Shown here one piece after another: positions 23,762 through 50,926 of a stretch of DNA of 64,000 nucleotides. Both the position numbers and the translations under genes were made by a program. The notes beneath the pieces are model-generated. The model saw only the letters and a list, made by a program, of their open reading frames with translations, searched no databases and was not told the origin of the DNA. Position 1 is the stretch's first letter. Each line of letters starts with the position of its first letter. The stretch is taken from contig NZ_BBYM01000020.1 of assembly GCF_001570405.1 (NCBI RefSeq), forward strand, positions 1 through 64,000. The letters run 5' to 3'. The DNA comes from Microtetraspora niveoalba. Lineage in GTDB: Bacteria; Actinomycetota; Actinomycetes; Streptosporangiales; Streptosporangiaceae.

Positions 23762-24850
<1,089 letters not shown>

Positions 24851-25074: not shown

Positions 25075-26613
25075 ATGGTGGCTGCTGGCGGCCGGCGGGC
25101 CGGCGTGCGCGAGTGGACTGGCTTGGGCTTGCTCGCGTTGCCGACGGCGCTGCTTGGACTGGACGTGACCGTGCTCTACCTGGTCCTGCCGAGCATGGCT
25201 GAGGCACTTGACCCATCCGCGACGCAGACCCTATGGATCATGGACGCCTACGGGTTCTTCATCGCCGGGTTCCTCGTCACCATGGGCACCCTGGGCGACA
25301 GGATCGGCAGACGTCGGCTGCTGATGCTCGGGATGGGGGCGTTCGCGGCAGTATCGGTCTTCTCAGCCTTCGCACCCAGTGCCGAGCTGCTGATCATCGC
25401 GCGAGCACTGCTCGGAATCGCTGGGGCGACACTGATGCCCTCAACCTTGTCGCTGATCTCGAACATGTTCAGCGACACGCGCCAGCGCGCCCTCGCCATC
25501 GGCGTATGGGCCACGATGTTCGCGCTCGGGATGGCCGCCGGGCCAATTGCCGGCGGCATCCTTGTCGATGCCTTCTGGTGGGGCGCGGCCTTCCTGCTCG
25601 CGGTGCCGATCGCCGTCGCGGTGCTCGCGGGATCGAAATTCGTGCTGCCCGAGTACTCCGACCCGCAGGCGGGCCGTCTCGATCTGATCAGTGTCGTGTT
25701 GTCGTTGGCGGCGCTCCTGCCTGCCATCTACGTGGTCAAGCTCGCCGCTTCGCGTGGTGTCGACGTGACATCCATCGTCCTGCTCGTCGTCGGCGTGGTC
25801 GCGGGCGTCGTGTTCGTGCGACGGCAGCGCGGGCTCGCTTCCCCGCTGCTCGATGTCTCCCTGTTCGCCGATCGGGCGTTCTCCGCCGCGCTCGGCGTGC
25901 TCCTGGTCGGGCTGATCGGCGTGGGCGGGGCCATGTATCTGGTGACCCAGTACCTCCAGACGGTCGAGGAACTGACCCCCTTCACGGCGGGGTTGTGGAT
26001 GGGGCCGCCTGCCCTGGCGATGTTCGCCGCCTCTATCGGGTCACCCTTGGTGGCCAGGCGTTCGCGGCCCGGTGTGGTGATGGCGGCCACGCTCACGCTG
26101 TCCGTGACGGGGTACGTGCTCCTGGCTACGGCCGGAGCGGGCGCGGTCCTCCACGTCGTGGCGGGGTTCGCTCTCGTGTACCTCGGTCTCGGCGCGATCG
26201 CCGCGCTGGGAACGGACATCGTGGTCGGGGCCGCCCCGGCGTCGAAGTCGGGTTCGGCGGCGGCGATGTCCGAGACCGTTCAAGAACTCGGCATCGCCAT
26301 TGGCGTGGCGCTGCTGGGAAGTCTGACCGGGGCCGTCTACAGCAGTCGCGTCGCCTCGCCTCCGGACACCTCGCCGGACGTCGCCTGGCAGCTTAAGGAC
26401 AGCCTGTCCGGCGCGCTCTCCGTCGCTGACCAGGTTCCTGCCGAGACGATCAACGCGGCGAAGGAGGCCTTCACCAACGGGATGAACATCGCCTCGGCGG
26501 TGGCAGGTGCCGCGATCCTCATCGCCGCGATCCTCTGCGTGATCGCGCTGCGCCACCTGCATCCACTCGCGGAGGACCACGGTGCGCACGCGGACGAACA
26601 TGCGCATTGTTGA
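25075..26613 (+). CDS. DHA2-family multidrug efflux MFS transporter (14 helices)
   Basis: 512 aa with about 14 transmembrane helices and QacA/SmvA-like signatures: LDVTVLYLVLPSMAEALDPS, QTLWIMDAYGFFIAGFLVTM, GTLGDRIGRRRLL (motif A), and motif-C-like GMAAGPIAGGILVD. It probably exports cationic or amphipathic drugs by proton antiport. ATG 25075 follows AAGGAGG at five bases. The C-terminus ends in a histidine-rich segment (HLHPLAEDHGAHADEHAHC), unusual for the family and possibly metal binding. The TetR gene starts 29 bp after its stop. The cassette sits between ychF and the secretion locus and may have been acquired. Confidence 0.92.
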   Translation: MVAAGGRRAGVREWTGLGLLALPTALLGLDVTVLYLVLPSMAEALDPSATQTLWIMDAYGFFIAGFLVTMGTLGDRIGRRRLLMLGMGAFAAVSVFSAFAPSAELLIIARALLGIAGATLMPSTLSLISNMFSDTRQRALAIGVWATMFALGMAAGPIAGGILVDAFWWGAAFLLAVPIAVAVLAGSKFVLPEYSDPQAGRLDLISVVLSLAALLPAIYVVKLAASRGVDVTSIVLLVVGVVAGVVFVRRQRGLASPLLDVSLFADRAFSAALGVLLVGLIGVGGAMYLVTQYLQTVEELTPFTAGLWMGPPALAMFAASIGSPLVARRSRPGVVMAATLTLSVTGYVLLATAGAGAVLHVVAGFALVYLGLGAIAALGTDIVVGAAPASKSGSAAAMSETVQELGIAIGVALLGSLTGAVYSSRVASPPDTSPDVAWQLKDSLSGALSVADQVPAETINAAKEAFTNGMNIASAVAGAAILIAAILCVIALRHLHPLAEDHGAHADEHAHC

Positions 26614-26641
26614 CTACCCTGGATCTCTGATGGGAGGTGGC

Positions 26642-27229
26642 ATGAGCGAGGCGAACGAACCGGTCGACGGACGACGAGCCAGAGGCAACAAGCGCCGCGC
26701 CGAGATCATCGATGCCACCCTCGCCGTCGTGCAGCGGGACGGCGCCGCGGGCGTCACGCATCGCACCGTTGCCAAGCAAGCCGGCATCACCACCAGCCTG
26801 AGCACGTACTACTTCGCGACTCTCGATGACCTTCTTGTCGCGGCCTTGTCCACCGTGGCCGATGACTACACGAAGCGGATCCAGGACATCGTCGACGGCC
26901 CCGGCGACAAGCTCCGGGGCCTGGCTGAGCTGATCGTCGAGTCCGGGGGTTCGGGCCGCGAGCGTGCTCTCGCCGAACGGGAACTCGCCACGCTCGCGGC
27001 CCGCCGCCCCGCTCTGGCCGCCGTGGCACGCCGCTGGCGGGAGAACGTCGCCGAACTCGCGGCGACCCTCACCGGCGACCGCACCGCCCAGGCGGCGCTG
27101 GTCGCGGCATCCGACGGCTTGTGCACCGCGATCCTCATCGACAATGCCCCCGCCGACCTCAACTACGTCTACGACGTCCTGGACCAGGCGATCCGATCGT
27201 CGCGGGGACCACGCGGCCGTTCCGCGTGA
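26642..27229 (+). CDS. TetR-family regulator of the adjacent efflux pump
   Basis: 195 aa from ATG 26642 with GGGAGG four bases upstream. HTH in residues ~18-65 (RRAEIIDATLAVVQRDGAAG, HRTVAKQAGITTSLSTYYFA). The ligand domain is not assigned to a known drug class. It lies directly downstream of the DHA2 pump on the same strand, so the usual local arrangement of repressor plus pump applies; the inverted repeat in front of the pump is the likely operator. Confidence 0.88.
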   Translation: MSEANEPVDGRRARGNKRRAEIIDATLAVVQRDGAAGVTHRTVAKQAGITTSLSTYYFATLDDLLVAALSTVADDYTKRIQDIVDGPGDKLRGLAELIVESGGSGRERALAERELATLAARRPALAAVARRWRENVAELAATLTGDRTAQAALVAASDGLCTAILIDNAPADLNYVYDVLDQAIRSSRGPRGRSA

Positions 27230-27654
27230 CCGTCGCTGCTCGCCGCCGCGCTCGGCCGCGAGCTGCCGGGTCCGCTGCCGCTGCGCCGCCGTGTGCTGGT
27301 GCGCCTGGCGATGGGTTCGCCTCGCTGCGCGTTGTGCTCGTCCAGGTGCGGGGTCGCCGCCCGATCGCCGACCCGCCACGTCTCTGAACTGCGAGGACAG
27401 CAATACGTGGCGGTTAGGTAATCGATGATGCCGCTGGCCAGGCGTAACGTGCTTTCCCGGCGTGACGGTCGGTCATGGGGCGTGGAACCGGGATGAGACC
27501 CGGTTTGCTCGGTTGCGGCGATGCTTGCACCATGGGCGTGGCTTTCCTGGAAGAATTGGCCCGACCGCTAGGGTGAAAACTTCAATGCGGCTAACCGGAT
27601 CGAGAGTAAGACGACACCGCGCCAGCCCGGGGGATCGGCGCGAGCGGAGGCGTG
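27230..27654. other. Intergenic region of 425 bp before the secretion-like operon
   Basis: No convincing gene. 27230-27390 has coding-like composition (an LAAALGRELPGPLPLRRRVLVRLA-type frame read in pieces), which may be a gene remnant but matches nothing I recognise. 27400-27620 is less GC-rich and presumably carries the promoter of the downstream operon. Confidence 0.45.
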
Positions 27655-28662
27655 ATGGCTCGCAGGTCAACCGTCCAGCCGGATCCTCGGATCGCTGGCG
27701 ACCCCGAGTCGTACCCTCCGCAGGGCCCTGAACGCGTGGCGGACACGCACGGGAACGCCCGGCGGCGCGGGGGTTGGAGCGGCGGCGGGGGCCGCTGGCT
27801 CGTCTGGACCGGCCGCGCCGTCCTGTGGGCGTTGATCATCGTGATCGTCGTCAACGGGGTGCGGGCGCCGCTCGAACGGATCACCCAGGGTGACACGACG
27901 GCCGGGGCGACACCCGAGCCGAGCGATTCCGGATTTCCCGTGACGCAAGCCGCGGCATTTGCCAATCAGTTCGCGGCGGTCTATCTGAATTTCGACGCGT
28001 CTAATCCGCAACAAAGAGCGGAGCGGTTGAAGCCATTTCTCCCCGAAGGCGCCCAGGAGCAGTTCGGCTGGAATGGGTACGGCCGGATGTCGGCTGGCGC
28101 GTTCCAGTTCACCGGAATAAATGTGCGCGACGCCGGCAACGCGGTCGTCACCGTGACATATCAGGCGGGCAGCAGGCGCGGGCTCCTGTCAGTGCCGGTC
28201 TACTACGACGGGTCGAAGTTCGTCGTGTCCGAGCGGCCGGGGCTGCTGCCGGACTCCGGTCCGGCAGGGCTGCCGGCCGTGGCCGACCCCGACCGGGACT
28301 CCGCCACCGAGTCCGAGCTGCGTCCCCAGCTCGAGGGCTTCTTCAAGGCGTACGCCGCGGGCGACCAGGTGGACCTGCAGCGGTACGTCGCGAACGGCGT
28401 GACCATCGAGGGCTTCGACGGGGCGCTCACGCTCGCCCAGCTCAAGGACGTCGTCGTCCCCGCCGGCGGGGAGAGCACCCGGGAGGTCACCGCCGTCGTC
28501 GTCTGGGCCGTGTCCACGGGCGGGGGCTCCGCCACCCCGCGTACGGACGATCCCGCGACCCAGCCGGCCGGGCTCGAGCAGGCCTACCGGCTCACCGTGG
28601 AGAAGCAGGGCGGCAAATGGTTCGTCGAGGCGGTCCAGGGCGCGAGCCGCCCCATGGGGTAG
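27655..28662 (+). CDS. TcpC-like conjugation/secretion protein
   Basis: 335 aa. An ~50-residue cytoplasmic N-terminus, one membrane helix (VWTGRAVLWALIIVIVVNGV), and an external region with two NTF2-like halves (residues ~95-190 and ~205-330). This is the layout of TcpC (VirB8-like) from Gram-positive conjugation systems. ATG 27655 follows GGAGG at four bases; an in-frame GTG directly precedes it. It is the first gene of an operon with TcpE, VirB4, VirB6-like and wall hydrolase genes, so it most likely forms part of the membrane channel. Family placement rests on topology, motif-poor similarity and context. Confidence 0.7.
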   Translation: MARRSTVQPDPRIAGDPESYPPQGPERVADTHGNARRRGGWSGGGGRWLVWTGRAVLWALIIVIVVNGVRAPLERITQGDTTAGATPEPSDSGFPVTQAAAFANQFAAVYLNFDASNPQQRAERLKPFLPEGAQEQFGWNGYGRMSAGAFQFTGINVRDAGNAVVTVTYQAGSRRGLLSVPVYYDGSKFVVSERPGLLPDSGPAGLPAVADPDRDSATESELRPQLEGFFKAYAAGDQVDLQRYVANGVTIEGFDGALTLAQLKDVVVPAGGESTREVTAVVVWAVSTGGGSATPRTDDPATQPAGLEQAYRLTVEKQGGKWFVEAVQGASRPMG

Positions 28663-28665
28663 CGC

Positions 28666-28710
28666 ATGACCGAACACGACGCCGCTGATCCATACCCCAG
28701 GAGGCCGTGA
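28666..28710 (+). CDS. Possible 14-aa micro-ORF linking tcpC and the small membrane gene
   Basis: ATG 28666 encodes MTEHDAADPYPRRP and ends one base before the TTG start of the next gene; it begins three bases after the tcpC stop. Its own sequence contains the AGGAGG that serves the next gene. It may carry ribosomes across the gap rather than make a functional peptide. Confidence 0.3.
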   Translation: MTEHDAADPYPRRP

Positions 28711-28711
28711 A

Positions 28712-28990
28712 TTGATTCTGAAGACCATCGTGGAGATCGCGTTCGATCCAACGGCTCCACCTGTCACGGGGATCAACACCGAGGGCCTGGCGGAGTTCCT
28801 GCGCAAGTTCTTCGCGCCGCTCTTCCTGGTCGTCGTATCCGTCGTGGCGATCTTCTTTCTCTTCACTCGAGAGATCACCAGGTTCATGCAGTTCATCCTT
28901 CTGGCGATCGCGATCGGCGTGATCTTCTACGTGCCCAACATCATCGAGGTGACGGCGAAGGCGATCGCGGGGGCGCTCGGCATCAAGTGA
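28712..28990 (+). CDS. Small two-helix membrane protein of the secretion locus
   Basis: 92 aa from TTG 28712 with GGAGG seven bases upstream. Two hydrophobic helices (APLFLVVVSVVAIFFLFTRE and FILLAIAIGVIFYVP) are separated by a short basic loop, followed by an Ala/Gly-rich end. Size and topology resemble TcpD or VirB2/TrbC-type small subunits of type IV secretion systems, but sequence alone does not decide. It lies 21 bp before the TcpE fusion gene. Confidence 0.7.
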   Translation: MILKTIVEIAFDPTAPPVTGINTEGLAEFLRKFFAPLFLVVVSVVAIFFLFTREITRFMQFILLAIAIGVIFYVPNIIEVTAKAIAGALGIK

Positions 28991-29011
28991 TCAGGCAGAG
29001 AGGAGGATCGG

Positions 29012-32000
29012 GTGGATCTGCCCACGTATACCAATATTTGGCGAATTGAGAAGCGGCTCTACAAGCTGTACGACCTGAAGCTGCCGACACCGCTTCCCAT
29101 CGTCTGGATCGGTGTGTTCGTGGGCGTCGCCGTCCCCTGGTGGCTGTTCCTCCGGATCGTCGGGCTCCCGTTCGACGCGCCGTGGCACGTGGTCTATCTG
29201 GTCCCGCCCGGGATCGTGACCTGGCTGTCGACCCGGCCGGTCATCGAGGGGAAACGGCTCACCGAGCTGATCCAGTCGCAGGTGCGCTACCTGGCCGAGC
29301 CGCGTACATGGTGCCGGATGGCGCCGGTCGACGAGCCGGACGAGGTCAGCCTCACCGTGCGGGTCTGGCGCTCCTCTCCGGCGCGCAGGGGCCGGTCCGC
29401 CGGACGGCAGCGCCGCGCCGCCGCCCCGACCGTCCAGCCCGCCGTGGCCCAGGCGGCCAAGGGAGCCGCCGCGGTCCCGGCCGTCGCCGAGCCGCTCCCC
29501 GCGCCTCCGCCCATGCCGCTGCCCCTGCCTGGCGCCGCGACCGGTGCGGCCTCGGCTTCGGGTACGGCCTCCGCTGCCACGCAGAAGGCGTCGCGGCCCG
29601 CTTCCGGCCGGAGGGGGAGGGCGGACACCGGTACCGGCCCCGCCAAGGCGGCCGGGGGCTCCTCGGGATCCGGAGCGCGAGGATCCGGGGGATCGAGGGG
29701 ATCGAGGGGATCGCAGGGGCCCGCGGGATCCGCTCCCGGCAGCACGCTCCTCAGGAAGGACCGCGCCTCCGCGCGGGGGTCCTCCGGGACCGACCCCGGG
29801 TACGGCGAGACGGTGCCGCCGGCGCCGCCCATCGGTCCCGACGCCCTTCGCAAGCTCCGCAGGCTGGCCGCCTCGGCGCAGGACGGGGCGGGGGAGCGGC
29901 GGGTGCCGGAGCGGCCGGTGCTTCAGCCGGGCCTGCCCGCGCCCGGCACGCCGGCGCGGGACGACGAGCGCGGAGCCGTACCGGGAGGTGAGGACGCCCC
30001 CCGTCTCCCGCAGAAGGTCTGGTCCTCGCCCGAGACGCCCGGAGCCACGTCTGTCGAGTCCTCCGTCGGGACGCCCGAGGCCGCGCCCGGCTCCTCCGTC
30101 GGGACACCCGAGGTCACAGCCCGCGAATCCTCGCCCGAGTCGTCCGCGTCCGCGCCCGGCTCCTCCGTCGGGACACCCGTGGCCGCGCCCGGCGAATCCT
30201 CGGCCGAGACGTCCGAAGCGATGTCCGTCGAGTCCTCGACCGGGATGTCTCCGGCCATGTCTGTCGAGTCCGGCATGGGCGGCTCCGCCGTGTACGGCGG
30301 GGTGTCCCGTCTCGGCGCGGAGGCGGTCGAGGAAGCCATACCGGAGACGACCGATGCGGCCGGAGCCGACGCACCGGTCGGCATGGCCGGCGCCGACTCC
30401 GGAACGGCCGGTCCGACGGAGGCCGGGCACGCCGAACGCCGCGGGCACGAGCGGCCGAGGCACGCGCGGGCCGACGTGACGCCGGAGGAAGAGCGCGAGA
30501 TCACGCACGACCGCCCCCGGCACGCCCGCCCGGACATGGCGCCGGAGGAGGCCGGAGAGCCCGCGTACGAGCCGATGACGCACGCCGACGCGGAACCGGC
30601 CTCCGGCGAGGTCAGCGGCGACGCGGATGTCGCGCCGCGGGCCGGAACGGTCGCGGAGCGGTCGAGCGGGCGCGTGGACGAGGCGCACCCGGTTGTCGAG
30701 CCATCGGCGCAGGGCCGGGTACGGCCCGAGGAGCGGCGCCTGCGGCCGGTCCGCGAGCCGGTCGCGGAAACTTCCGGGGACGACGGAACCGCCCGAGGGC
30801 ACGACACCATCCGCGAAGGTGGAACCGCCTGGGGCGAGGTAACCGCCGAGGGCGAAGCCACCCGGCAAGGTGGAACGGCGTGGGGACACGGGACCGCCGA
30901 CGAAGGTGGAACCGCCTGGGGCCAGGTAACCGCCGGGGAACACGAAACCACCGGGCGAAGCGGAAGCACGCGGCAAGGTGGAACGGCGTGGGGACACGGG
31001 ACCGCCGAGGAGCGCGGGATCACCGGCGAAGGTGCGGCCGCCCGCGAGCATGGAACCGGCCGTGAAGACGGAACGCCGGAACCTGGAACCGCCGGTGACC
31101 TTGGGACCGGCGGGGAGGCTGGGACCGCGGAAGCAGTGGGAACCGCCGGCGGCCAGGTAGCCGCTGGGGAGACGGTCCACGAGTCGGTGGACGCGCCCGC
31201 GGTTCCCGTCTCGATCAGGACGGCGGCGCCGGGCGACGAGCCGAGGGTGCGCCGGGTCGAGTCGGTCGTCGGCCGGGACACCTCCGGCGGCTGGCGCAGG
31301 ATCGCCCAGGTGGTCGTGGGCGGCGGCGGAGGCCGTACGGACGGGATGGAGATCGACGAGGCCCGGGCCCGCACGGTGCTCACGGGGAGCAGGCGGATCC
31401 TGGTCCTCGGCTGCACCGGCGGCGCGGGGCAGACGACGACGACCCTCATGCTCGGCCACACCTTCGCCAAATATCGCGACGACCGCGTCGTCGCGCTCGA
31501 CGCGAGCACCGGCGAGCACACCCTCACCACCCGCATCGCGGCGGAGTCCCCCGAGACGCTGAGCTCCCTGCTCGCCGGGTCGGGAGGGGTGAGCGGCTAT
31601 CTCGGGATGCGCGCGTACACGTCCCGGTGCGACTCGGGGCTGGAGGTCGTCGGCGCGGACTCCGAGGCCGGGGCCGCCCAGCGGCTGGAGAGCGGGTGGC
31701 CGCGGATGCTCGCCGCGCTGGACCGCCACTACCGGTTGATCGTGGTCGACCCGGCCGCGGCGCTGGCCGCGCGGCTGCTGCCGTACGCGGACCAACTCGT
31801 GCTGGTGGCGCCGGCCAGCGAGGACGCGCCCGACGCCGTGGCAATGACGTACGAGTGGCTGGACGGGCACGGCTGCTCCGACCTGCGCCGCCGGGCGGTC
31901 ATGGTGGTCAACGGCGTGAGCAGGCGCAGCGCCTCCGACGTGGAGCAGGCCGAGGCGGTGGCCAGGGGACGCTGCCGGGCGATCGTCCGCATCCCCTGGG

Positions 32001-32137
32001 AGGACGAGCTCTCCCGTCTGGGGCCGGTCGATCCGGCCCGGCTCCGGCCGGGAGGCCGCAGGGCGTACGTGGCGCTCGCGGGAGTGATCGCGAGCGGCCT
32101 GGCGGCGAACCAGCACAAGCAGGAGGTGGCCAGGTGA
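29012..32137 (+). CDS. TcpE-like protein fused through a repeat-rich linker to a MinD/ParA-like domain lacking the P-loop lysine
   Basis: 1041 aa from GTG 29012 (GAGGAGG upstream). Residues ~1-110 resemble TcpE: YTNIWRIEKRLYKLYDLKLP followed by two membrane helices. Residues ~125-760 are a low-complexity linker rich in Gly, Ser, Thr, Pro and Glu, with units such as SSVGTPEAAPG and GGTAWGHGTADE. Residues ~785-1040 are a MinD/ParA-like fold: VLGCTGGAGQTTTTLMLGHT, VALDASTGEHTLTTRIA, RLIVVDPAAALAARLLPYAD. Residue 807 is Gln (codon CAG) where the Walker A Lys should be, and the deviant MinD Lys is also missing, so ATP hydrolysis is doubtful. It could be a scaffold that positions the VirB4 ATPase. 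Confidence 0.75.
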   Translation: MDLPTYTNIWRIEKRLYKLYDLKLPTPLPIVWIGVFVGVAVPWWLFLRIVGLPFDAPWHVVYLVPPGIVTWLSTRPVIEGKRLTELIQSQVRYLAEPRTWCRMAPVDEPDEVSLTVRVWRSSPARRGRSAGRQRRAAAPTVQPAVAQAAKGAAAVPAVAEPLPAPPPMPLPLPGAATGAASASGTASAATQKASRPASGRRGRADTGTGPAKAAGGSSGSGARGSGGSRGSRGSQGPAGSAPGSTLLRKDRASARGSSGTDPGYGETVPPAPPIGPDALRKLRRLAASAQDGAGERRVPERPVLQPGLPAPGTPARDDERGAVPGGEDAPRLPQKVWSSPETPGATSVESSVGTPEAAPGSSVGTPEVTARESSPESSASAPGSSVGTPVAAPGESSAETSEAMSVESSTGMSPAMSVESGMGGSAVYGGVSRLGAEAVEEAIPETTDAAGADAPVGMAGADSGTAGPTEAGHAERRGHERPRHARADVTPEEEREITHDRPRHARPDMAPEEAGEPAYEPMTHADAEPASGEVSGDADVAPRAGTVAERSSGRVDEAHPVVEPSAQGRVRPEERRLRPVREPVAETSGDDGTARGHDTIREGGTAWGEVTAEGEATRQGGTAWGHGTADEGGTAWGQVTAGEHETTGRSGSTRQGGTAWGHGTAEERGITGEGAAAREHGTGREDGTPEPGTAGDLGTGGEAGTAEAVGTAGGQVAAGETVHESVDAPAVPVSIRTAAPGDEPRVRRVESVVGRDTSGGWRRIAQVVVGGGGGRTDGMEIDEARARTVLTGSRRILVLGCTGGAGQTTTTLMLGHTFAKYRDDRVVALDASTGEHTLTTRIAAESPETLSSLLAGSGGVSGYLGMRAYTSRCDSGLEVVGADSEAGAAQRLESGWPRMLAALDRHYRLIVVDPAAALAARLLPYADQLVLVAPASEDAPDAVAMTYEWLDGHGCSDLRRRAVMVVNGVSRRSASDVEQAEAVARGRCRAIVRIPWEDELSRLGPVDPARLRPGGRRAYVALAGVIASGLAANQHKQEVAR
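30810..31150 (+). repeat. Degenerate tandem repeats encoding Gly/Thr-rich linker units
   Basis: Units related to GGTGGAACCGCCTGGGG and GGTGGAACGGCGTGGGGAC recur about every 33-60 bp, translating to GGTAWG-E/H/Q-V/G-TA-like units. All copies keep frame, in line with a flexible spacer that can change length. Confidence 0.8.
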
Positions 32138-32386
32138 GCGCGGAGCGAGCCGCGACTTGCGAGCGGAGTGGCCCGCGAGGGACGAGCGGTCCGCGTAGGG
32201 AGCGGGGAGCGGTGAGGGACCGATGAGTGTCGGGCGAGCCGCGACTTGCGAGCGGAGTGGCCCGCGAGGGACGAGCGGTCCGCGTAGGGAGCGGGGAGCG
32301 GTGAGGGACCGATGAGTGTCGGGCGAGCCGCGACTTGCGAGCGGAGCGGTGCGCTGGGGCGGCGAGGAGTGGTGAGCGACCAGTGA
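32134..32386 (+). CDS. Relay of three overlapping micro-ORFs between the TcpE fusion gene and virB4
   Basis: ORF1 32134-32226 (30 codons), ORF2 32223-32315 (30 codons), ORF3 32312-32386 (24 codons). Each stop overlaps the next start by four bases (GTGA at 32134, ATGA at 32223 and 32312, GTGA at 32383, the virB4 start). The peptides are near-identical, basic and Arg/Gly/Ser-rich (SVGRAATCERSGPRGTSGPR). Because an 89-bp unit shifts frame, only the stop/start overlaps keep translation going. A role in coupling virB4 translation to the upstream gene is inferred; a peptide function is not shown. Confidence 0.5.
32145..32350 (+). repeat. 89-bp tandem repeat, about 2.3 copies
   Basis: GCGAGCCGCGACTTGCGAGC starts at 32145, 32234 and 32323, exactly 89 bp apart. 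The first two units are near-identical throughout, and the third breaks off after about 28 bp. The unit contains the ATGA stop/start overlap used by the micro-ORF relay. Confidence 0.95.
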
Positions 32387-34860
32387 GCAGGACGCGCAGC
32401 CGTCTCGCGGTGCGGTACTTCGACGATCGTGTCCTTCTCACCGATACCGCGGCGTGGGCGTACTTCCGGCTTCCCACGGTGAGCTACGAGTTCATCACGC
32501 CGGAGGAGCGCGAGGCGCTGGCCACGAACATCACGATCGCCCTCGCGGCGATCAGGATGTCCGACGCCGAGGTCCACCTGCGGGTCGCGCACCGGACCTA
32601 TCCGGCGGCGGAGTGGGCGATGGCCCTGAACGCCACATCCGACGAGGGGCCGGGCTGGCGCGACTACCTGGAGGAGATGTACCGGCACGTCTGGGCGAAG
32701 GACTTCTGGAGCAAGGAGATCTACCTCGGCGTACGGCTCGGCCGGCGAGGGGCCCAGCTCGGCAGCGGGGTGCTGGCCCAGCTCTTCGGCTTCTACCTGC
32801 GCAGCGAGAAGGCGCTCGGCATCGAGGACGACCACGTGCCCGAGCGGGAGATCGAGCGGTGGACGGAGCAGGCCGAGCGGCTCGGGCGCGCGCTCGCCTC
32901 CAGCTCCCTCTACGCGAGGCACGCCAGCTCCACCGAGATCGCCTGGTTGTTCCAGCATGCGGTGTCGGGCGCGCTGGGCGACCCGCCGCCGTCCGCCTCG
33001 CCGCGCCGCAGGTGGGGCAAGGGCGAGATCGAGTCCCTGGTCGAGGGGCAGATCCACAACGGACGTTCGCTGCTGCGGATCGAGCAGCCGACCGGCGACT
33101 CGTTCACCGCGCACCTGTCGTTCGCGCGGTTCCCCGACCTGATGCCGTTCCCCGACGGCGAGCCGTGGCTGCACTTCGCCGACCAGTTGCCGTTCCCGGT
33201 GGAGATCTCCAGCAGGATGCGGCTGATCCCGCCGGTCATGGCGAGCAAGGACGTGGCCAGGAAGCTGGCGCACGCCCGCGACATGGACATCCACATCCGC
33301 GAGGCGGGCGCCGAGGCCCCGCTCGCGCTGGCCGAGCAGATCGACGCGGCCCGGATGCTCGAACACGGCATCACCAAGGAACGGCTCCCCTTCGTGTACG
33401 GCTGGCACCGGCTGAGCGTGAGCGCGCCCACGGAGGAGATCTGCGTCCAGCGGGTCGAGGCGATCGTCGAGCACTACCGCGATCTCGGCATCGACGTGGT
33501 GAACTCCACCGGCGACCAGTTCTCGCTGTTCTGCGAGGCTCTGCCCGGAGAGAGGGTGCGGGTCAACGCGTACGCGCAGCGGCAGCCGCTGCGCACGATC
33601 GCGGGCGGGATGGCGACGGCGACGGTCGAGCTCGGCGACCGGGTGGACGAGTCGGGCGCGGGCTGGCTCGGCCCGTACGTGGGGGAGACGCTGGGGCGGG
33701 CGCGCAGCATCGTCCACTTCGACCCGCTGGTCGCGGCGACCCGGAACCGTCCGACGGCCATCGCGATCACCGGAGAGCCGGGCGGCGGAAAGACGACGCT
33801 GGCCCTGCTGCTCATCTACCAGATGGCGCTGCGCGGGGTCACGGTCGCGGTCATCGACCCGAAGGGCGACGCCGAGTCGCTGGTGCGGCTGCTGGAGGAC
33901 CGGGGCCGCCGGGCGCGGATCATCCCGCTCGGGTCGGCGGCGCCCGGCCTGCTCGACCCGTTCTCGTTCGGCGACGACATCGCGGCCAAGAAGACGATGG
34001 CGACGGAGACGCTCCGGCTGCTGCTGCCGCGCATGTCGGAGGAGCGCGAGTCGGCGATGATCCAGGCGGTGGCGGCGGTCTCCAACCAGCCGGATCCGTC
34101 GCTGGGCAAGGTCGTCGACCATCTGGAGCAGTCCGAGGACCCGGCGTCCAAGAACCTCGGGGCCGTGCTGCGTTCGATGTCGGAGATGCACCTGGCGCAG
34201 CTCTGCTTCGACCCCTCCGGCGGAGACCAGATCGACACCGAGGGCTGGACGACCGTGTTCACCCTGGGCGGGCTGACCCTGCCCGACGTGGCGACGGCCC
34301 GGGATGACTACTCCTACGAGCAGCGGCTCTCGGTGGCCCTGCTGTACCTGGTCTCGCAGTTCGCCCGGCGGCTGATGAACGGCCTGGACCGGCGTACGCC
34401 GAAGGCCATCTTCCTGGACGAGGCGTGGGCGATCACCTCCACGCCGGAGGGGGCCAAGCTGGTGCCGGAGGTGTCGCGGATGGGCCGATCCCGCAACACG
34501 GCACTCGTCCTGGTCTCCCAGAACGCCGGTGACCTGCTGAGCGAGCAGGTCACCAACTGTCTCTCGTCGGTGTTCGCGTTCCGCTCCACAGAGCGGGTGG
34601 AGGTCGAGCACGTGATGGAACTCCTCGGGGTCGATCCATCAGAGGAACACAAGGCGGTGCTGCGGTCCCTGGGTAACGGGGAGTGCGTCTTCCGGGATCT
34701 GGACGGCCGGGCGGGGCGGATCGGGGTGGACCTCATCTCCGAGGACCTGCTCCGATGGCTCGACACGAATCCGACCCACGACAAACCGCACGAGAAAAGG
34801 CATGATCTTCTTGGCGGGGGCGCCGGCAAACAGGGGGTCGCGCAGGAGGTGCGGTCTTGA
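32383..34860 (+). CDS. VirB4-like conjugation/secretion ATPase
   Basis: 825 aa from GTG 32383. An N-terminal region without enzymatic motifs (residues ~1-440) is followed by a RecA-like ATPase domain: Walker A ITGEPGGGKTTLALLL at about 462-476, Walker B KAIFLDEAW at about 674-682, and the conserved SRMGRSRNTALVLVSQNAGD helix-strand typical of VirB4/TraC/TcpF-like proteins. It would energise assembly or substrate passage of the channel. It is coupled to neighbours at both ends: the micro-ORF relay upstream and a 4-bp TTGA overlap with the next gene. Key residues appear intact, unlike the MinD-like domain upstream. Confidence 0.88.
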   Translation: MSRTRSRLAVRYFDDRVLLTDTAAWAYFRLPTVSYEFITPEEREALATNITIALAAIRMSDAEVHLRVAHRTYPAAEWAMALNATSDEGPGWRDYLEEMYRHVWAKDFWSKEIYLGVRLGRRGAQLGSGVLAQLFGFYLRSEKALGIEDDHVPEREIERWTEQAERLGRALASSSLYARHASSTEIAWLFQHAVSGALGDPPPSASPRRRWGKGEIESLVEGQIHNGRSLLRIEQPTGDSFTAHLSFARFPDLMPFPDGEPWLHFADQLPFPVEISSRMRLIPPVMASKDVARKLAHARDMDIHIREAGAEAPLALAEQIDAARMLEHGITKERLPFVYGWHRLSVSAPTEEICVQRVEAIVEHYRDLGIDVVNSTGDQFSLFCEALPGERVRVNAYAQRQPLRTIAGGMATATVELGDRVDESGAGWLGPYVGETLGRARSIVHFDPLVAATRNRPTAIAITGEPGGGKTTLALLLIYQMALRGVTVAVIDPKGDAESLVRLLEDRGRRARIIPLGSAAPGLLDPFSFGDDIAAKKTMATETLRLLLPRMSEERESAMIQAVAAVSNQPDPSLGKVVDHLEQSEDPASKNLGAVLRSMSEMHLAQLCFDPSGGDQIDTEGWTTVFTLGGLTLPDVATARDDYSYEQRLSVALLYLVSQFARRLMNGLDRRTPKAIFLDEAWAITSTPEGAKLVPEVSRMGRSRNTALVLVSQNAGDLLSEQVTNCLSSVFAFRSTERVEVEHVMELLGVDPSEEHKAVLRSLGNGECVFRDLDGRAGRIGVDLISEDLLRWLDTNPTHDKPHEKRHDLLGGGAGKQGVAQEVRS

Positions 34861-37205
34861 GAACGCGGGTGAACGGTCGCGCTCGCTCCGGTCGTCGGCG
34901 CAGGCTCGCCCTGCTCCTCGTGGTGTTCGCGGCGTTCCTGACGCTGCCCTTGGTACTGTCCAGCACCGCCAGCGCGGCGGGTGTGTGCGACCTGTCGCCC
35001 GCCCTCGCGCCCGAGATCGTGGACGGCGGTGTGGACGGCCTGGTCAAGCCGCCCCCGCCGGACGGCGGCGACACCGGCGCGGCGACCGGCGCCGCCGCCG
35101 AAGCGGGCGCGGAGGCCACCAGCACGACCGGCGGCACGACCGGCGGCACGGGCGCCGCCTCCGCCGCCGAGCAGGCGCCGCTCACCAACTACGCCCGGTA
35201 CGGCATGGCCGGCCAGTTCTGGCACACGTACGACCTGGGCTGCTCGGACGTGACCGCGGTGCTCGGCAACTCCTGGGCGAACGCGATCTTCTCCTGGGCC
35301 AAGGCGATCGACCGGCTGACGATCAGCACCTACCAGGCGGCGGCCTCCGAGGGGCCCATCCAGCCCATCAAGGACGTGGTGGACGACATCGTCACCAACC
35401 TCGCCAACGCCATGTACTGGCCGTACCTGCGGCCGATCGTCATCCTCGGCGCGATCTGGCTCGCCTGGTACGGGCTCATCCGCAAGAGGGCGACGACGAC
35501 CACCGAGGGCGTCATCTGGATGGTCCTCGCGGTGACCGTGGCGGTGTGGTTCTTCAGCCGTCCGGGGGACTTCACCGGGCTCGGCAAGGTCGTCACCGAC
35601 AAGACGGGCGAGGTCGTCAACTCGGCGTTCTCCGGGCTGCCGGGGGCGGGAGGCGCGTCCTGCCTGCCCGCCGACGGCGGCGACGGGGAGGCCAAAGCCG
35701 GCGGGTACGCCCAGCCGGGCACCCCGGGGGTGGACCAGAACGCCGACGCGCTCTGGTCCACTCTTGTCTGCAAGCCCTGGCTGATGGGGGCGTTCGGCAC
35801 CGCCGACCCGAACGCGCCGGTCGTGAAGACGTTCGGCGCCAAGCTGCTCGACTTCCAGGCGATCGACCGCGCGGAGCAGGCCGCCCAGCAGATGCCGAAC
35901 ACCGACGCCCACCAGAAGCGCTACGAGGAGGAGATCGCCAAGCCGCTGCAGAACACGTCGATGTACTTCCTCTTCCAGGGGAAGGACTGGACCGGCAGGC
36001 TCGGCATCGCGATCGGCGCGTTCGTCGCGGCCATGGTCGCGGGCCTGCTCATCTTCCTGGTGGCGGTCTCCCTGCTGGCGCTCAAGATCGGCTTCCTGCT
36101 GCTGCTGATCCTCGGGCCGGTGTTCCTGCTGATCGGCGTCCATCCCGGGTCGGGACGCATCATCGCGATGCGGTGGGTGGAGATGGTGGTCGGCACGCTG
36201 CTGCGCCAGGCCGTGCTGGCGCTGGTGCTCGGCGTGCTCGTGTACGGCTACTCGCTGATCATCTCGACGAGCCTGCCGTGGAGCATGCAGATCCTGTTCA
36301 TGGCGCTGCTGACGATCGCGGTGTTCTTCTATCGGCGGCCGTTCCAGCACCTGTTCGCGTCGATGGACGGCCACACCCTCACCACGCGGATGCTCGGGGA
36401 CGCGGCGAGCGCGCCGACCCTCTCCCGTGCCGCGAACGCGTTGCCGCCCGTGGCGGCGGGCCGGGTCGGGCGGTGGGGCCTACGCAAGGCCGAGCCGGTC
36501 ATCGGCGCGGCCGCGATGGCGAGCGGCGCCGGTACGGCGGCCGCAGTGGCGGCCTCCTCCGTGGCCCAGGGCAGGGTGCGCGGCGAGGACGGCGCGGCCG
36601 GGACGATCCCGGCCGGCGTCCGGGCCGCGGCGCAGCCGGCGCCCCTGGAGACCGACGCGCCCGGCCCGGGACGCCGCAAGGTCACCGCGGTCCCGCGCCA
36701 GGGGTCGGCCCCGCCGCTCAACCTGTCCGGCGTACGGCCGGCCACGCCCACACGCGCGTCCTCGGGCGCGGGGGCGGCCTTCTCCGCGGGCTCCGGATCG
36801 TCGGGCTCGGGCGGGTCCGGTGGTGGCGGCGGCTGGTTCAGCGGCCGGTCCGGCGGTTGGGCCTCACGCCCCTCCCGTAGCGGCTCCGGCGGCTCGGGGG
36901 GCTCGGGCGGCGGTGGCGGCCGCAGGTCGGTGTGGTCGGGATCGTCGGGCGGCTCGTCCTCGCGCGGCGGCTCCGGCGGGTCGAACCGTTCCGGCGGGTC
37001 GAGCCGTACGAACGGCTCGCGGTCCGGCTCCGGCGGCCGGTCGTCGGGAGGCGGCATCTTCGGCGGCGGCTCCGGCGGGTCCGGCGGCTCGCGCACCTCC
37101 GACGCGCCCCCGCTGTGGCTGTCCAGCCGCGGCGACACCCGGCGCGACCCCGGTGACGCGCCCGGCCCCTTCTGGGCGCAGCCCTCCGGCTCCGACAAGG
37201 AATGA
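34857..37205 (+). CDS. VirB6/TrbL-like polytopic membrane protein with Gly/Ser-rich tail
   Basis: 782 aa from TTG 34857, overlapping the virB4 stop; GGAGG lies seven bases upstream. Signal-like N-terminus (LALLLVVFAAFLTLPLVLSS ending in ASA), a Thr/Gly-rich periplasmic stretch, two helices around residues 185-235, a soluble loop with several cysteines, then about five helices at 380-500 (AALVAGLLIFLVAVSLLALK-like region, LLLLILGPVFLLIGVHPGSG). The RxxxMRWVEMVVGTLLRQA region recalls VirB6/TrbL and TcpH-type channel proteins. The C-terminal ~260 residues are disordered, with long Gly/Ser/Arg runs. It probably forms the inner-membrane channel. Confidence 0.8.
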   Translation: MRTRVNGRARSGRRRRLALLLVVFAAFLTLPLVLSSTASAAGVCDLSPALAPEIVDGGVDGLVKPPPPDGGDTGAATGAAAEAGAEATSTTGGTTGGTGAASAAEQAPLTNYARYGMAGQFWHTYDLGCSDVTAVLGNSWANAIFSWAKAIDRLTISTYQAAASEGPIQPIKDVVDDIVTNLANAMYWPYLRPIVILGAIWLAWYGLIRKRATTTTEGVIWMVLAVTVAVWFFSRPGDFTGLGKVVTDKTGEVVNSAFSGLPGAGGASCLPADGGDGEAKAGGYAQPGTPGVDQNADALWSTLVCKPWLMGAFGTADPNAPVVKTFGAKLLDFQAIDRAEQAAQQMPNTDAHQKRYEEEIAKPLQNTSMYFLFQGKDWTGRLGIAIGAFVAAMVAGLLIFLVAVSLLALKIGFLLLLILGPVFLLIGVHPGSGRIIAMRWVEMVVGTLLRQAVLALVLGVLVYGYSLIISTSLPWSMQILFMALLTIAVFFYRRPFQHLFASMDGHTLTTRMLGDAASAPTLSRAANALPPVAAGRVGRWGLRKAEPVIGAAAMASGAGTAAAVAASSVAQGRVRGEDGAAGTIPAGVRAAAQPAPLETDAPGPGRRKVTAVPRQGSAPPLNLSGVRPATPTRASSGAGAAFSAGSGSSGSGGSGGGGGWFSGRSGGWASRPSRSGSGGSGGSGGGGGRRSVWSGSSGGSSSRGGSGGSNRSGGSSRTNGSRSGSGGRSSGGGIFGGGSGGSGGSRTSDAPPLWLSSRGDTRRDPGDAPGPFWAQPSGSDKE

Positions 37206-37207
37206 CC

Positions 37208-37855
37208 ATGAAGGGAAGGGACGGCCGGCGGGGGCTGGCCTTCGCCGGTGTCGTGGTCGTCCTGGCCGTCGTCGGCGTCTATCTCACGTCGGCCGGGTCG
37301 TCGGGCGACGACGACGCGTCCCGGCAGCGGCCGAGCGCGGCGGAACCGACCGGGACGCGGGCGCCCGGAGCGGTCCCGACCGTGATCCCCAGCCAGGTCG
37401 CCACCACGCCCGCGGCCTTCGACATCTACTCCTACCTCCCGCTGTCGAAGGCCGAGCTGGGGGCGGCGGCCGACCTCGCCCGCCGGTTCACCGAGTCGTA
37501 CGGGACCTTCCGGCACGACGAGGACCCGGCGCTGTTCGCGAAGCGGCTCGCCGGGTTCGCCACGGCCGAGTTCGGCGCGGACCTGACCCGGACGACGACC
37601 TCGCCCGCGCTGGTGAACCACAACCGGTCGGACGCGGTCGTGTCGCGCGGCACCGCGACCGTGCGCTCCATCCGCGACATGACGGCCAACATGGTCACGC
37701 TGGTGGTCGGCTCGGTGCGGCACGTCACCGCGAAGAGCGGCGAGAAGGAGCAGCGTGACGAGTTCGCGGTGACGGTCGTCAAGGTCGGCTCCGACTGGAG
37801 GGTGTACGACCTGCAGCCCGCGGACGCCGGCCAGGACGGGGACACGTCGCCGTGA
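37208..37855 (+). CDS. Membrane-anchored NTF2/VirB8-like candidate of the secretion locus
   Basis: 215 aa. ATG 37208 has AAGGA six bases upstream; ATG 37202 overlaps the previous stop (ATGA) but would have no spacing from that site. One N-terminal helix (GLAFAGVVVVLAVVGVYLTS), a Ser/Pro-rich segment, then an alpha-beta domain (ADLARRFTESYGTFRHDEDP, FAVTVVKVGSDWRVYDLQP) with the feel of an NTF2/VirB8 periplasmic domain. It has no close named family that I recognise. The next gene overlaps it by four bases (GTGA). Confidence 0.65.
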   Translation: MKGRDGRRGLAFAGVVVVLAVVGVYLTSAGSSGDDDASRQRPSAAEPTGTRAPGAVPTVIPSQVATTPAAFDIYSYLPLSKAELGAAADLARRFTESYGTFRHDEDPALFAKRLAGFATAEFGADLTRTTTSPALVNHNRSDAVVSRGTATVRSIRDMTANMVTLVVGSVRHVTAKSGEKEQRDEFAVTVVKVGSDWRVYDLQPADAGQDGDTSP

Positions 37856-38940
37856 TGCCGCCCAGGGCCCTGGCGGGGAGGTTCTCCTGGCGCGGGCTGG
37901 CCATCGCCCTCGCGGTGCTCGTCCCGTTCACGCTGTTCGGGGCGATCATGCTGATGACGCCCACGCCGTCCATCCTGATGGGCGGCGGCCTCGGCGGCGC
38001 GGACTGCGCGGAGGCCGCCACGGAGACCGGCCTGTCCGAGACGGCGCGCGAGGACATCCCCACCGACTATCTGGAGCTGTACAAGAAGTTCGGCGCCCAG
38101 ATCGGCGTCCAGTGGAACGTGCTGGCCGCGGTGGGCAAGCGGGAGACCGACCACGGCAGGTCCAAGCTCCCCGGCGTGAAGGACGGCACCAACTACGCGG
38201 GCGCGGCCGGCCCGATGCAGTTCCTGATCAGCACCTGGGGCGGCAAGCCCAGGATCAAGATGGGCGACGAGTTCAACGGGTACGCCTCGGACGGCGACGG
38301 CGACGGGTACGGCGACGTCTACAACCCGGCGGACGCCATCCTCGCCGCGGCCAAGATGCTCAAGCGCAACGGCGCGCCCGACGACCTCAGGCGGGCCATC
38401 TTCGTCTACAACCGGGCGGACTGGTACGTGGATCAGGTCCTCGCCATCGCCCAGCGGTACGCGGCCACCGGCGGCATCGACACCCCCGACCCCGCCTGCG
38501 ACACCGCGGACGCGCCGAACGGCGTCGTGCAGAAGATCCTCGAGTACGCGCTGGCACAGCGCGGCAAGCCGTACCGGTGGGGTGGGACGGGGCCGGACGC
38601 CTTCGACTGCTCCGGCATCATCTACATGGCCTACCGCAACGCGGGCCTGACGATCCCGCGCACGACCTTCGGCCAGTGGCCCTTCGGCGTACGCGTCGAG
38701 CCGGGCAGCGAGCAGCCGGGCGACCTGGTGTTCTTCAACGCGGGGCCGGGCACCGGGCCGGACCGGCCGGGGCACGTCGGCATGATCGTCTCACCGGGGA
38801 AGATGATCGAAGCCCGTTGCACCAGATGCGGCCCCATCAAAGTCACGACATATGCCGATCGGGGGAGTCTGGTGGGCTTCACCCGTCCGCTCCAGAACGC
38901 GGATGTGCTGGAGCAATTGAAAAGCGCCGCTCTAACGTAA
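37852..38940 (+). CDS. Bifunctional peptidoglycan hydrolase: lytic transglycosylase plus NlpC/P60
   Basis: 362 aa. N-terminal membrane helix (LAIALAVLVPFTLFGAIMLM), then a lysozyme/SLT-like domain (residues ~75-205) with the likely catalytic Glu in GKRETDHGRSKLPG. The C-terminal NlpC/P60 endopeptidase domain (residues ~220-345) has Cys in AFDCSGIIYMAY and His in PGHVGMIVSPG. Such two-domain enzymes (TcpG, Orf14 of Tn916, PrgK) open the cell wall for Gram-positive type IV secretion. It starts at GTG 37852 or ATG 37855 inside the previous stop. It is the last strictly coupled gene of the locus. Confidence 0.88.
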   Translation: MMPPRALAGRFSWRGLAIALAVLVPFTLFGAIMLMTPTPSILMGGGLGGADCAEAATETGLSETAREDIPTDYLELYKKFGAQIGVQWNVLAAVGKRETDHGRSKLPGVKDGTNYAGAAGPMQFLISTWGGKPRIKMGDEFNGYASDGDGDGYGDVYNPADAILAAAKMLKRNGAPDDLRRAIFVYNRADWYVDQVLAIAQRYAATGGIDTPDPACDTADAPNGVVQKILEYALAQRGKPYRWGGTGPDAFDCSGIIYMAYRNAGLTIPRTTFGQWPFGVRVEPGSEQPGDLVFFNAGPGTGPDRPGHVGMIVSPGKMIEARCTRCGPIKVTTYADRGSLVGFTRPLQNADVLEQLKSAALT

Positions 38941-38945
38941 GGACC

Positions 38946-39338
38946 ATGGACACCATCGTCGTGGGGGCAGCGATCATCGAGAACGGCCGGCTCCTTGCCG
39001 CCCAGCGGGCCGACCCGCCCGAGCTGAAGGGCGGATGGGAGTTCCCCGGCGGCAAGGTCGACCCCGGTGAGAGCGACCACGACGCCCTGGTCCGCGAATG
39101 CGCCGAGGAGCTCGGCGTGAAGGTCGCGATCGGGCGCAGGGTCGGCGGCGAATGGCCCCTGTCCAGCGGCTCCGTGCTGCGGGTATGGCTCGCCACCATC
39201 GTGTCGGGCACGCCCGAGCCCCTGGAGCACCTGGCCCTGCGGTGGCTCGGGCCGGAGGAGCTCTACGAGGTCCCGTGGCTTCCCGGCGACCTGCCGATCG
39301 TGGGCGCGGTCCGAAGAATGCTCAATGGTTCTTCATGA
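38946..39338 (+). CDS. NUDIX hydrolase (MutT-like)
   Basis: 130 aa. The complete Nudix box GGKVDPGESDHDALVRECAEELGV (given as G-x5-E-x7-REC-x-EE-x-G-V) is at residues ~36-59, preceded by GGWEFPGG as in MutT, an 8-oxo-dGTP pyrophosphatase. The C-terminal LALRWLGPEELYEVPWLPGD matches the MutT/Orf135 ending. It starts five bases after the wall hydrolase stop and may share its transcript, though it is probably housekeeping rather than part of the secretion machine. Confidence 0.9.
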   Translation: MDTIVVGAAIIENGRLLAAQRADPPELKGGWEFPGGKVDPGESDHDALVRECAEELGVKVAIGRRVGGEWPLSSGSVLRVWLATIVSGTPEPLEHLALRWLGPEELYEVPWLPGDLPIVGAVRRMLNGSS

Positions 39339-39391: not shown

Positions 39392-39410
39392 GATGGCGAC
39401 GGAGGCGGCA

Positions 39411-40445
39411 GTGAGCGGGAACGCACGACTGAGGGCCGCCTTCTCCGCCCTGATCGTCACGATTTCGGTGCTGGTCGCCGTTCCCGTCATCGCCGCCGCG
39501 GCGGACGACAAGGTCGAGCCGTGTGACGTCGGCCAGACCTGTCCGCCCGAGGTCACGGTGACGATCACCGAGACGCCCGGCGCCCCCGCCCCGAGCCAGA
39601 CCGGCAGCCCGGTGGTGACGGAGACGGTCACCGTCACGCCGACGCCGAGCACGAGCCCCAGCCCCAGTCACTCGCCCACCCCCTCGCCCGAGCCGAACCC
39701 GATCGAGACCACGACCGCCGCGCCGATCCCCGACGTCGTCGACACGACGCCCGATCCGGAGCCGTCGAAGGAAGAGGAGCCGGACGTCTCGCTGCCGGAG
39801 GCGTCCGACAGCCCGACCGACGCGGTCACGGCGCCGACCGAGTTCGGCGACCCGACCCCGGACGACGCCGCGTACGAGCTGCGCAACGCCACCCCGGAGT
39901 TCGACCAGGTCACGCTGAGCCACAAGCTGGCCGTCCCGGCCGCGCTGCTCGTGCTGATCGCCCTGTTCGGCTGGCTCGTCTTCGAGGGCAGGCTGCGGCG
40001 GATGGCGCACGCGGCGGCCGTGCGCAAGGGCGGCCCGGCGGCCGCGACGCCCGCCGTGGCCGCGGCGGGGCCGGCGTACGCGCCGATGGTCGGCTTCGTG
40101 CCCGTCCCGGTGGCGTACCCGCCGGCGTACGGCTACCCGTACGCGGGGGAGCAGCCGTACGGGTACCCGCAGGGCTATCCGATGGCGCCCCAGCAGGGCT
40201 ACCCGCCGCACCACGGGTACCCGGCCCAGCAGGCGTACGGGATGCCGCAGGGGTACGGCATGGCGCCGGGGTACGGCGTCGCGCCGCAGGCCCAGCAGCC
40301 GGACGCCTGGAGCTACGCGGTCAACGAGCCGGACCCGGCGGCCCGCCCGCAGACCCCGCAGGCCCCGGGGAACGCGGCTCCCGGCACGACCGGCGTCGAC
40401 GCGACCGCGCCGTACCCCACGCAGGGCCCCGGACAGCCCGGCTGA
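39411..40445 (+). CDS. Surface-exposed Pro/Thr-rich membrane protein with cytoplasmic GYP repeats
   Basis: 344 aa from GTG 39411, with GGAGG five bases upstream; ATG 39393 in the same frame lacks such a site. Signal peptide (SALIVTISVLVAVPVIAAAA), a Thr/Pro/Ser-rich stalk (residues ~30-130, including PTPSTSPSPSHSPTPSPEPN), one membrane helix (LAVPAALLVLIALFGWLVFE), then a cytoplasmic Tyr/Gly/Pro/Gln-rich tail with repeats GYPQGYPMAPQQGYPPHHGY. Such tails are disordered and may phase-separate or bind partners. Family not recognised. It has its own promoter and palindrome. Confidence 0.75.
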   Translation: MSGNARLRAAFSALIVTISVLVAVPVIAAAADDKVEPCDVGQTCPPEVTVTITETPGAPAPSQTGSPVVTETVTVTPTPSTSPSPSHSPTPSPEPNPIETTTAAPIPDVVDTTPDPEPSKEEEPDVSLPEASDSPTDAVTAPTEFGDPTPDDAAYELRNATPEFDQVTLSHKLAVPAALLVLIALFGWLVFEGRLRRMAHAAAVRKGGPAAATPAVAAAGPAYAPMVGFVPVPVAYPPAYGYPYAGEQPYGYPQGYPMAPQQGYPPHHGYPAQQAYGMPQGYGMAPGYGVAPQAQQPDAWSYAVNEPDPAARPQTPQAPGNAAPGTTGVDATAPYPTQGPGQPG

Positions 40446-50473: not shown

Positions 50474-50926
50474 TCAGAACCGGTTCGAGGTGGACGGCAG
50501 CTTCACCACGGTGACGAAGAAGTCGTCGATCTGCCGGACCACCCGGATGAACTGGTCGAAGTCCACCGGCTTGGACACGTACGCGTTGGCGTGCAGGTGA
50601 TAGCTGCGCACGATGTCCTCCTCGGCCTCGGACGTGGTGAGCACCACCACGGGGATGCTGCGCAGGCCGGGGTCGGCCTTGACCTCGGCCAGCACCTCCC
50701 GGCCGTCCTTACGCGGCAGGTTGAGGTCGAGGAGGATCATGTCGGGGCGCGGGGCGTCCGCGTACTCGCCCTCGCGACGGAGGAAGGCCATGGCCTGCTC
50801 GCCGTCGTTGACCACGTGCAGCCTGTTCTTGACCTTGTTGAGCTCGAACGCCTCCCGGGTCAGCAGGACGTCGCCCGCGTCGTCCTCGACCAGCAGGACC
50901 TCGATGGGCCGCATGTCATTCATCAT
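50474..50926 (-). CDS. Single-domain response regulator (Rcp1-like)
   Basis: 150 aa, receiver only: acidic pair LVEDDAGD, phosphoacceptor in [13 protein letters not shown], Thr in [11 protein letters not shown], Lys in [11 protein letters not shown]. The form matches cyanobacterial Rcp1-type receivers that pair with HAMP kinases. The ATG at 50926 overlaps the kinase stop by 11 bp; ATGs at 50923 and 50914 are also possible. It is the end of a three-gene phosphorelay. Confidence 0.9.

Follow-up and report, generated by a model that had tools for sequence, protein, structure and literature searches.

A chromosomally fixed type IV secretion channel operon of Streptosporangiaceae with a ParA/MinD-fold domain fused to TcpE

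The mating-channel module of the MPF_FA class of type IV secretion systems (T4SSs), as carried by Tn916, ICEBs1 and pCW3, comprises TcpC/VirB8, a small membrane protein, TcpE/VirB3, VirB4, a large VirB6 and an SLT-NlpC/P60 wall hydrolase. An operon with these kinds of genes in nearly the same order (the ICEBs1 and Tn916 order used for the comparison is the one we presume) occupies positions 27655-38940 of the forward strand of contig NZ_BBYM01000020.1 of Microtetraspora niveoalba (genome of 8.47 Mb in 98 contigs, 99.86% complete), within the stretch of 64,000 nucleotides analysed here, which we call the window. The host is a Microtetraspora-type actinomycete of the family Streptosporangiaceae, a spore-forming soil bacterium. 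Compared with the MPF_FA module, the locus differs in that no coupling protein, relaxase or integrase was seen, in its vertical inheritance, in a second VirB8, and in a TcpE that carries a ParA-fold domain. Together the genes make up the wall and membrane portion of an MPF_FA system in the description of PMC12857230.

The cmdABCDEF operon of Streptomyces coelicolor (SCO4126-4131) resembles the locus in being chromosomal and co-directional and in encoding a VirB4-type ATPase motor. Null mutants of all cmd genes but cmdA were defective in sporulation, with chromosome-segregation defects (anucleate spores made up 8% in one mutant and 6% in another) and increased actinorhodin in several; CmdB was located at the membrane, and transfer of an SLP2-derived plasmid was unchanged (Xie et al. 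2009, PMC2782261). The genes cmdBCDEF were also found in an actinorhodin screen (PMC6585502). The T4SSs of patescibacteria are likewise ubiquitous, chromosomal and mostly without a relaxase, but they are related to MPF_FATA, include pilin genes and belong to epibiotic hosts (PMC12102498). A preliminary description of the window had called the operon possibly not described in this form, and we found no paper on it in the literature searched, most subscription journals lying outside the coverage. New here are the ParA/MinD-fold domain fused to TcpE with an altered P-loop, the conserved leader of the operon, and the fixed VirB4 of a second family.

The operon consists of seven co-directional, closely spaced or overlapping genes, all of them open frames. 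They are listed below with the repeat that lies between two of them; counts over loci are taken from the best 80 of 296 loci, a set biased to close relatives, and gene-order counts from its 56 loci longer than 20 kb.

27655..28662, + strand: virB8-like tcpC, 335 amino acids (PF12642, E 5.7e-18), in 56/56 loci longer than 20 kb
28712..28990, + strand: small membrane protein of 92 amino acids in a TcpD-like position, in 56/56 loci longer than 20 kb
29012..32137, + strand: tcpE (PF12648, E 4.2e-22) with a long variable linker and a C-terminal ParA/MinD-fold domain
32145..32346, + strand: 89-bp unit repeated perfectly in tandem (2.3 copies) in the gap from the tcpE fusion to virB4
32383..34860, + strand: virB4 ATPase, 825 amino acids (AAA_10, PF12846, E 5.3e-69), Walker A GEPGGGKTT intact
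34857..37205 (start 34857 or 34920), + strand: virB6/trbL-like membrane protein (TrbL/VirB6, PF04610, E 4.7e-9)
37202..37855, + strand: second virB8-like gene, 217 amino acids, predicted fold with one N-terminal helix and an NTF2/VirB8-like domain
37852..38940, + strand: virB1/CwlT-like wall hydrolase with SLT and NlpC/P60 domains (PF00877, E 4.4e-19; SLT_2, E 1e-5)

Curated Pfam families are matched by five of the seven genes. The 92-amino-acid membrane protein has no Pfam family above the cut-off and may, to judge from the position of its gene, play a TcpD-like role. VirB4 probably starts at the GTG at 32383, which gives 825 amino acids without stops; its Walker A string was found in 80/80 loci, and its closest NCBIfam model is TcpF (E 6.4e-72, under the cut-off of the model). 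For VirB6 the closest model is CD3337/EF1877 (NF046089, E 3.5e-23), again under the model's cut-off. The 217-amino-acid protein has no Pfam match; its AlphaFold model (predicted local distance difference test, pLDDT, 82.2; predicted template modelling score, pTM, 0.64) retrieved IcmL-like proteins, CagV, PrgL, DotI and TraM as top Foldseek matches with target TM-scores of 0.59-0.71, and the protein is VirB8-like by this predicted fold. In the hydrolase, the SLT glutamate and the NlpC cysteine and histidine, at what we take to be the catalytic positions, are retained in 21/21 aligned rows. The channel set of an MPF_FA-type T4SS is complete, with the genes for VirB4, VirB6, VirB8, TcpE/VirB3 and the wall hydrolase standing together, and Pfam and fold comparison confirm that the operon is the membrane and wall channel part of a T4SS of the Tn916/ICEBs1 type. 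The interval that holds the 89-bp repeat contains a related but different sequence in M. fusca (L086; L, G and C numbers are our handles for loci, genomes and contigs).

The product of the tcpE gene is 1041 amino acids long and consists of TcpE, the variable linker and a C-terminal domain (31283-32137) whose fold is that of ParA/MinD by model and Foldseek. The lysine of its P-loop is replaced by glutamine (TGGAGQT in the window), and glutamine stands at this position in 80/80 loci. The domain lacks both Walker lysines and hence the deviant Walker A motif, with its lysines, that we take as the yardstick for ParA/MinD ATPases. Because both lysines are gone, the domain is probably a nucleotide-independent anchor or positioning adaptor. 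The preliminary description had recognised a Tcp/VirB operon with TcpC-, TcpE-, VirB4-, VirB6- and NlpC/P60-like genes, all of which Pfam bears out; the gene at 37202-37855, which it had taken for a second small membrane protein, turns out to be VirB8-like by predicted fold, and what it had listed as a TcpE-like gene encodes the whole fusion, of which the linker and the ParA/MinD-fold domain had gone unmentioned.

The flanks of the operon, against which its place was compared across genomes, are the following.

23762-24850: ychF, upstream flank
38946-39338: NUDIX gene, downstream flank

All seven genes were found in the same order and on the same strand in 56/56 loci longer than 20 kb, with a NUDIX match in 56/56 and ychF upstream in 46/56. 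The second set comprised 20 further loci, two of which (L016 and L020) stop within the operon; BLASTP recovered VirB4, TcpE, the second VirB8 and the NlpC hydrolase in every one of them, VirB6 in 17, and both TcpC and the small protein in 18. In a search of 41 genomes, VirB4 was found at 75% identity or more in 25/25 genomes of the host family (labelled f1, as f34 and f43 label other families), the source genome included, and in all three congeners; it was also 81% identical in G025, from a second family of the order, while the three genomes of a third family gave a weak match in two and none in one. One stop falls in the matched stretch of G001, G014 and G015, where the genes are open at 825, 838 and 831 amino acids; since the genes read as open frames, these stops precede the start. 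In an even sample of the class, 45 f1 genomes are among the matches listed, at 1666-1808 bits, and other families reach at most 220 bits; the 285 genomes without a match in this sample are not itemised and may include members of f1, whereas the 41-genome search accounts for every genome.

Distances between VirB4 proteins follow those between YchF proteins (r 0.89, n=13, permutation p 0.0005; means 0.18 versus 0.21). As the divergence of the operon proteins parallels that of ychF and rmuC, the operon is, on sequence grounds, inherited vertically. Against three congeners, VirB4 had ratios of nonsynonymous to synonymous substitution rates (dN/dS) of 0.048-0.090; the ParA-fold domain had 0.067-0.100, the second VirB8 0.35-0.44 and the linker 0.55-0.63, while ychF, against two congeners, had 0.116-0.124. 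Against two more distant genera the VirB4 values rose to 0.096 and 0.121. VirB4 and the ParA-fold domain are under strong purifying selection, which is less strong for the second VirB8, the TcpE part and the small protein and weakest in the linker. The kept gene order and the low dN/dS of VirB4 exceed what chance would give. The suggestion that the locus is a fixed device rather than a mobile element agrees with its presence in close relatives, with one gene order kept at one chromosomal place across the family (between ychF and NUDIX in most loci), with divergence in step with ychF and rmuC, and with a window free of recognised mobility genes.

The last point rests on a Pfam scan of 50 of the 55 called genes of the window (five short or end-cut calls lay outside it), in which no relaxase, coupling-protein or integrase family was found, as the preliminary description had anticipated; ARAGORN found no tRNA in the window. 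A genome-wide profile search of the source genome found no TraG-D_C coupling protein (PF12696). This family was missing from five of 16 f1 genomes, all of them channel-bearing (the source genome, G004, G005, G008 and G012), and matched in the other 11, in one of them below the cut-off. No TrwC/MOBF relaxase (PF08751) was found in the source genome, MOBF being the one relaxase class searched genome-wide, and 7/10 f1 genomes, the source included, were without it. The FtsK-domain matches of the source genome are confined to an 880-amino-acid FtsK-like frame, two large frames that are EccC-like in size alone, one weak match below the cut-off and three FtsK-type Tra genes. These Tra genes adjoin genes for RepSA and a phage integrase and therefore belong to actinomycete integrative and conjugative elements (AICEs) of the pSAM2 type, three of which, each with integrase, RepSA and FtsK-type Tra, lie elsewhere in the source genome on contigs C51, C46 and C24 (L208, L209 and L210). 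The marks of a conjugative T4SS or integrative conjugative element (ICE), namely coupling protein, relaxase, integrase and patchy presence, were not found for this locus; a distant TcpA-like coupling protein is possible.

The relation to cmd was examined in loci found through a published primer, which with at most two mismatches located the operon in 10/199 genomes of a Streptomyces-like genus and serves as a locator, not as a census. The cmd-type loci share with ours an SLT-NlpC/P60-type gene nearby in 5/6, but they form a separate lineage, and CmdB matches the VirB4 described here in the motor only. In the cmd locus of L062, CmdA has a TraG-D_C match below the cut-off and CmdC to CmdF have no Pfam family; CmdC gave two weak partial matches in 61 f1 genomes, in a search run without a positive control. 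Orthology of the operon to cmdABCDEF was rejected: the VirB4, VirB6 and TcpC profiles missed the cmd proteins of six Streptomyces-like loci (E 1e-3), and hhalign finds a weak match of the motor alone.

A second fixed lineage was encountered in family f34 (perhaps Micromonosporaceae), with VirB4 in 57/61 genomes; in L074-L076 and in 9/12 further loci (L178-L189) it has fol genes next to it, as assigned by eye. Its VirB4 is homologous to ours over the full length (hhalign probability 100) but only about 31% identical; the f34 locus has no TcpC profile match, a 120-amino-acid protein without ParA stands in the TcpE position, and L076 has an M23 peptidase where the SLT-NlpC hydrolase sits here. 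A third T4SS-like locus was noticed in two genera of f43 (L078 and L079), with shared housekeeping-like neighbours as judged by eye. VirB4 trees contain tight groups, with support of 98/98 for f1 and 100/99 for f34 with f43, and one fixed ancestor for the VirB4s of f1, f34 and f43 is neither shown nor rejected (p of the approximately unbiased test, p-AU, 0.35). Single VirB4 genes have been reported from other actinomycetes: a VirB4-like gene that three Frankia strains share and whose product most resembles a protein of Streptomyces (PMC2266912), and one virB4 in Micromonospora lupini (PMC4182475).

Ahead of tcpC lies the following element, read as a promoter from its sequence.

27502..27654, + strand: conserved non-coding leader, putative promoter, with a box at about 27531-27556, a -10-like TAGGGT at about 27569, and a GC hairpin and ribosome-binding site before tcpC

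The leader was compared in 65 sequences, with further analyses on 59 sequences and on 33 of those. Identity reaches 95% or more at 85 of the 200 positions ahead of tcpC, compared with 6 upstream of ychF (n=51), 8 upstream of the gene at 39393 (n=63) and 29 upstream of the NUDIX gene (n=68). The sequences upstream of genes B, C, E, F and G of this comparison and of the NUDIX gene are partly coding, the last consisting for the most part of the end of the hydrolase reading frame; the misaligned TcpE row was left out. Within the first 15 codons, conservation of third positions is 0.86 in tcpC and 0.87 in ychF, so that tcpC does not stand out in this respect. Each of 7/13 genomes (7/9 of f1; reversed control 0) has a single copy of a 24-base box, always about 120 bases ahead of tcpC. 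A regulon sharing this box was considered and rejected, given the single match per genome that always stands before tcpC; so was a riboswitch or known RNA in the leader, which had no Rfam match and showed little covariation, any double change being confined to 4/37 predicted pairs. The conservation of the leader suggests that the operon is probably under expression control of its own.

Between ychF and the operon, the source genome has an MFS efflux gene and a TetR gene (25075-27229). The MFS gene is closest to LfrA and QepA among NCBIfam models, far under their cut-offs. This pair looks like a recent insertion, since the MFS gene has no match in any of the 56 loci longer than 20 kb and both genes have none in the 20 further loci. 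On the other side, the gene at 39393-40445 encodes a membrane protein that, judged by eye, begins like a signal peptide and contains a stretch rich in Thr and Pro; it is matched in 55/56 loci longer than 20 kb at a median identity of 41%. In L017, L018, L019, L021 and L022, an extra unannotated gene of 365-825 amino acids lies between the 39393-type gene and NUDIX. No Pfam family was found in any of the nine 39393-type and extra neighbour proteins scanned, which may be cargo of the channel or unrelated to it. Further downstream, genes for a response regulator, a CHASE3-HAMP histidine kinase and a response regulator-SpoIIE phosphatase stand together at 50474-53707, and two separate succinate dehydrogenase/fumarate reductase-type gene sets lie at 40627-43289 and 55007-58396.

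We tentatively favor, as a real possibility, the reading that the operon is a domesticated, permanent chromosomal channel serving mycelial development. The mating-channel half of a Tn916/ICEBs1-type T4SS would have become a vertically inherited chromosomal machine in Streptosporangiaceae, and the data suggest a transfer machine turned into a permanent part of the cell. By analogy with the respective families, VirB4 would power an assembled membrane channel of VirB3, VirB6 and VirB8, and the SLT-NlpC/P60 enzyme would open the wall; the ParA/MinD-fold domain on TcpE would hold the channel in place, loosely like TadZ/CpaE for Tad pili, likewise a protein of the ParA/MinD family that partners an envelope machine and has an atypical ATPase domain. 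The TadZ/CpaE chain 3fkq of E. rectale was the Foldseek match of rank 34 with the ParA-fold part alone as the query, and the fold leaves their kinship undecided. Such a channel would serve the mycelium's own development, at septa or in sporulating hyphae, like the separate-lineage cmd operon, rather than conjugation. A bolder extension, which we consider rather unlikely, is that in several sporulating actinomycete families a conjugation channel has separately been turned into a core organelle of development. It would be a conduit at septa or in the envelope that moves DNA or protein between compartments of one mycelium, held in the present case by a ParA-fold scaffold that works without ATP and forms one protein with a channel part. 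Several observations weigh against a developmental channel. CmdB is very distant from the VirB4 described here (hhalign probability 11%), so that the developmental role is an analogy. The parallel with TadZ/CpaE is loose as well, for TadZ/CpaE is encoded by a gene of its own, includes a receiver domain and is able to bind ATP (PMC13170226), whereas here the domain is fused to TcpE and its lysines are gone. Against two distant genera dN/dS rises to 0.24 and 0.29 for the ParA-fold domain and to 0.48 and 0.64 for the second VirB8. WhiG and BldD motifs are not enriched upstream, and GACAC, present in 53/65 upstreams (17.3 on average after shuffling), falls within the conserved block and does not count as evidence of its own. 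The family-wide, signal-peptide-like gene at 39393-40445, finally, is a possible exported cargo.

This last point favors a fixed system for protein secretion or contact-dependent antagonism which, like Ptl or Brucella VirB, would need no VirD4 to release proteins into the medium or deliver them to competitors, an explanation that we regard as unlikely on balance but worth serious attention. T4SSs without VirD4 export proteins in Gram-negatives (PMC12857230), PF12696 and PF08751 are both absent from the source genome, and, with the 39393-40445 gene in 55/56 loci and the extra genes in five loci as possible cargo, protein export gains weight and the developmental channel loses it. On the other hand, no toxin, effector or immunity family was found beside the operon among the genes scanned, and a VirB4 that is universal in the family and slowly evolving is, to our knowledge, unusual for antagonism systems. 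Improbable, in our view, is a device that transfers or releases chromosomal DNA with the help of an FtsK/TraB-type translocase, or of a relaxase that escaped recognition, encoded elsewhere. The channel is that of conjugative elements, the source genome does have FtsK-type translocases, including the three AICE Tra proteins, and its relaxases were searched genome-wide for MOBF only; yet the TraG-type coupling protein is absent from 5/16 channel-bearing f1 genomes, AICE Tra proteins function without a genuine T4SS (PMC3218068), and plasmid transfer was indifferent to deletion of cmd (PMC2782261). An ordinary ICE or its decaying remnant would account for gene content and order (the latter as we presume it for Tn916 and ICEBs1), but we consider it very improbable given the same place and order across the family, the purifying selection, and a window in which no integrase, relaxase or tRNA was found by Pfam and ARAGORN, att sites not having been searched as such.

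If the operon is the permanent developmental channel that we favor, a T4SS would belong to the core machinery of an actinomycete family instead of being a mobile element, and counts of ICEs in actinomycetes that are based on VirB4 may include non-mobile loci. Through the altered ParA fold on TcpE, the positioning of a Gram-positive T4SS could be approached directly. The Streptomyces cmd mutants of 2009 (PMC2782261) raised the question of what makes spore-forming actinomycetes retain channels like those of conjugation, and this question would then become testable.

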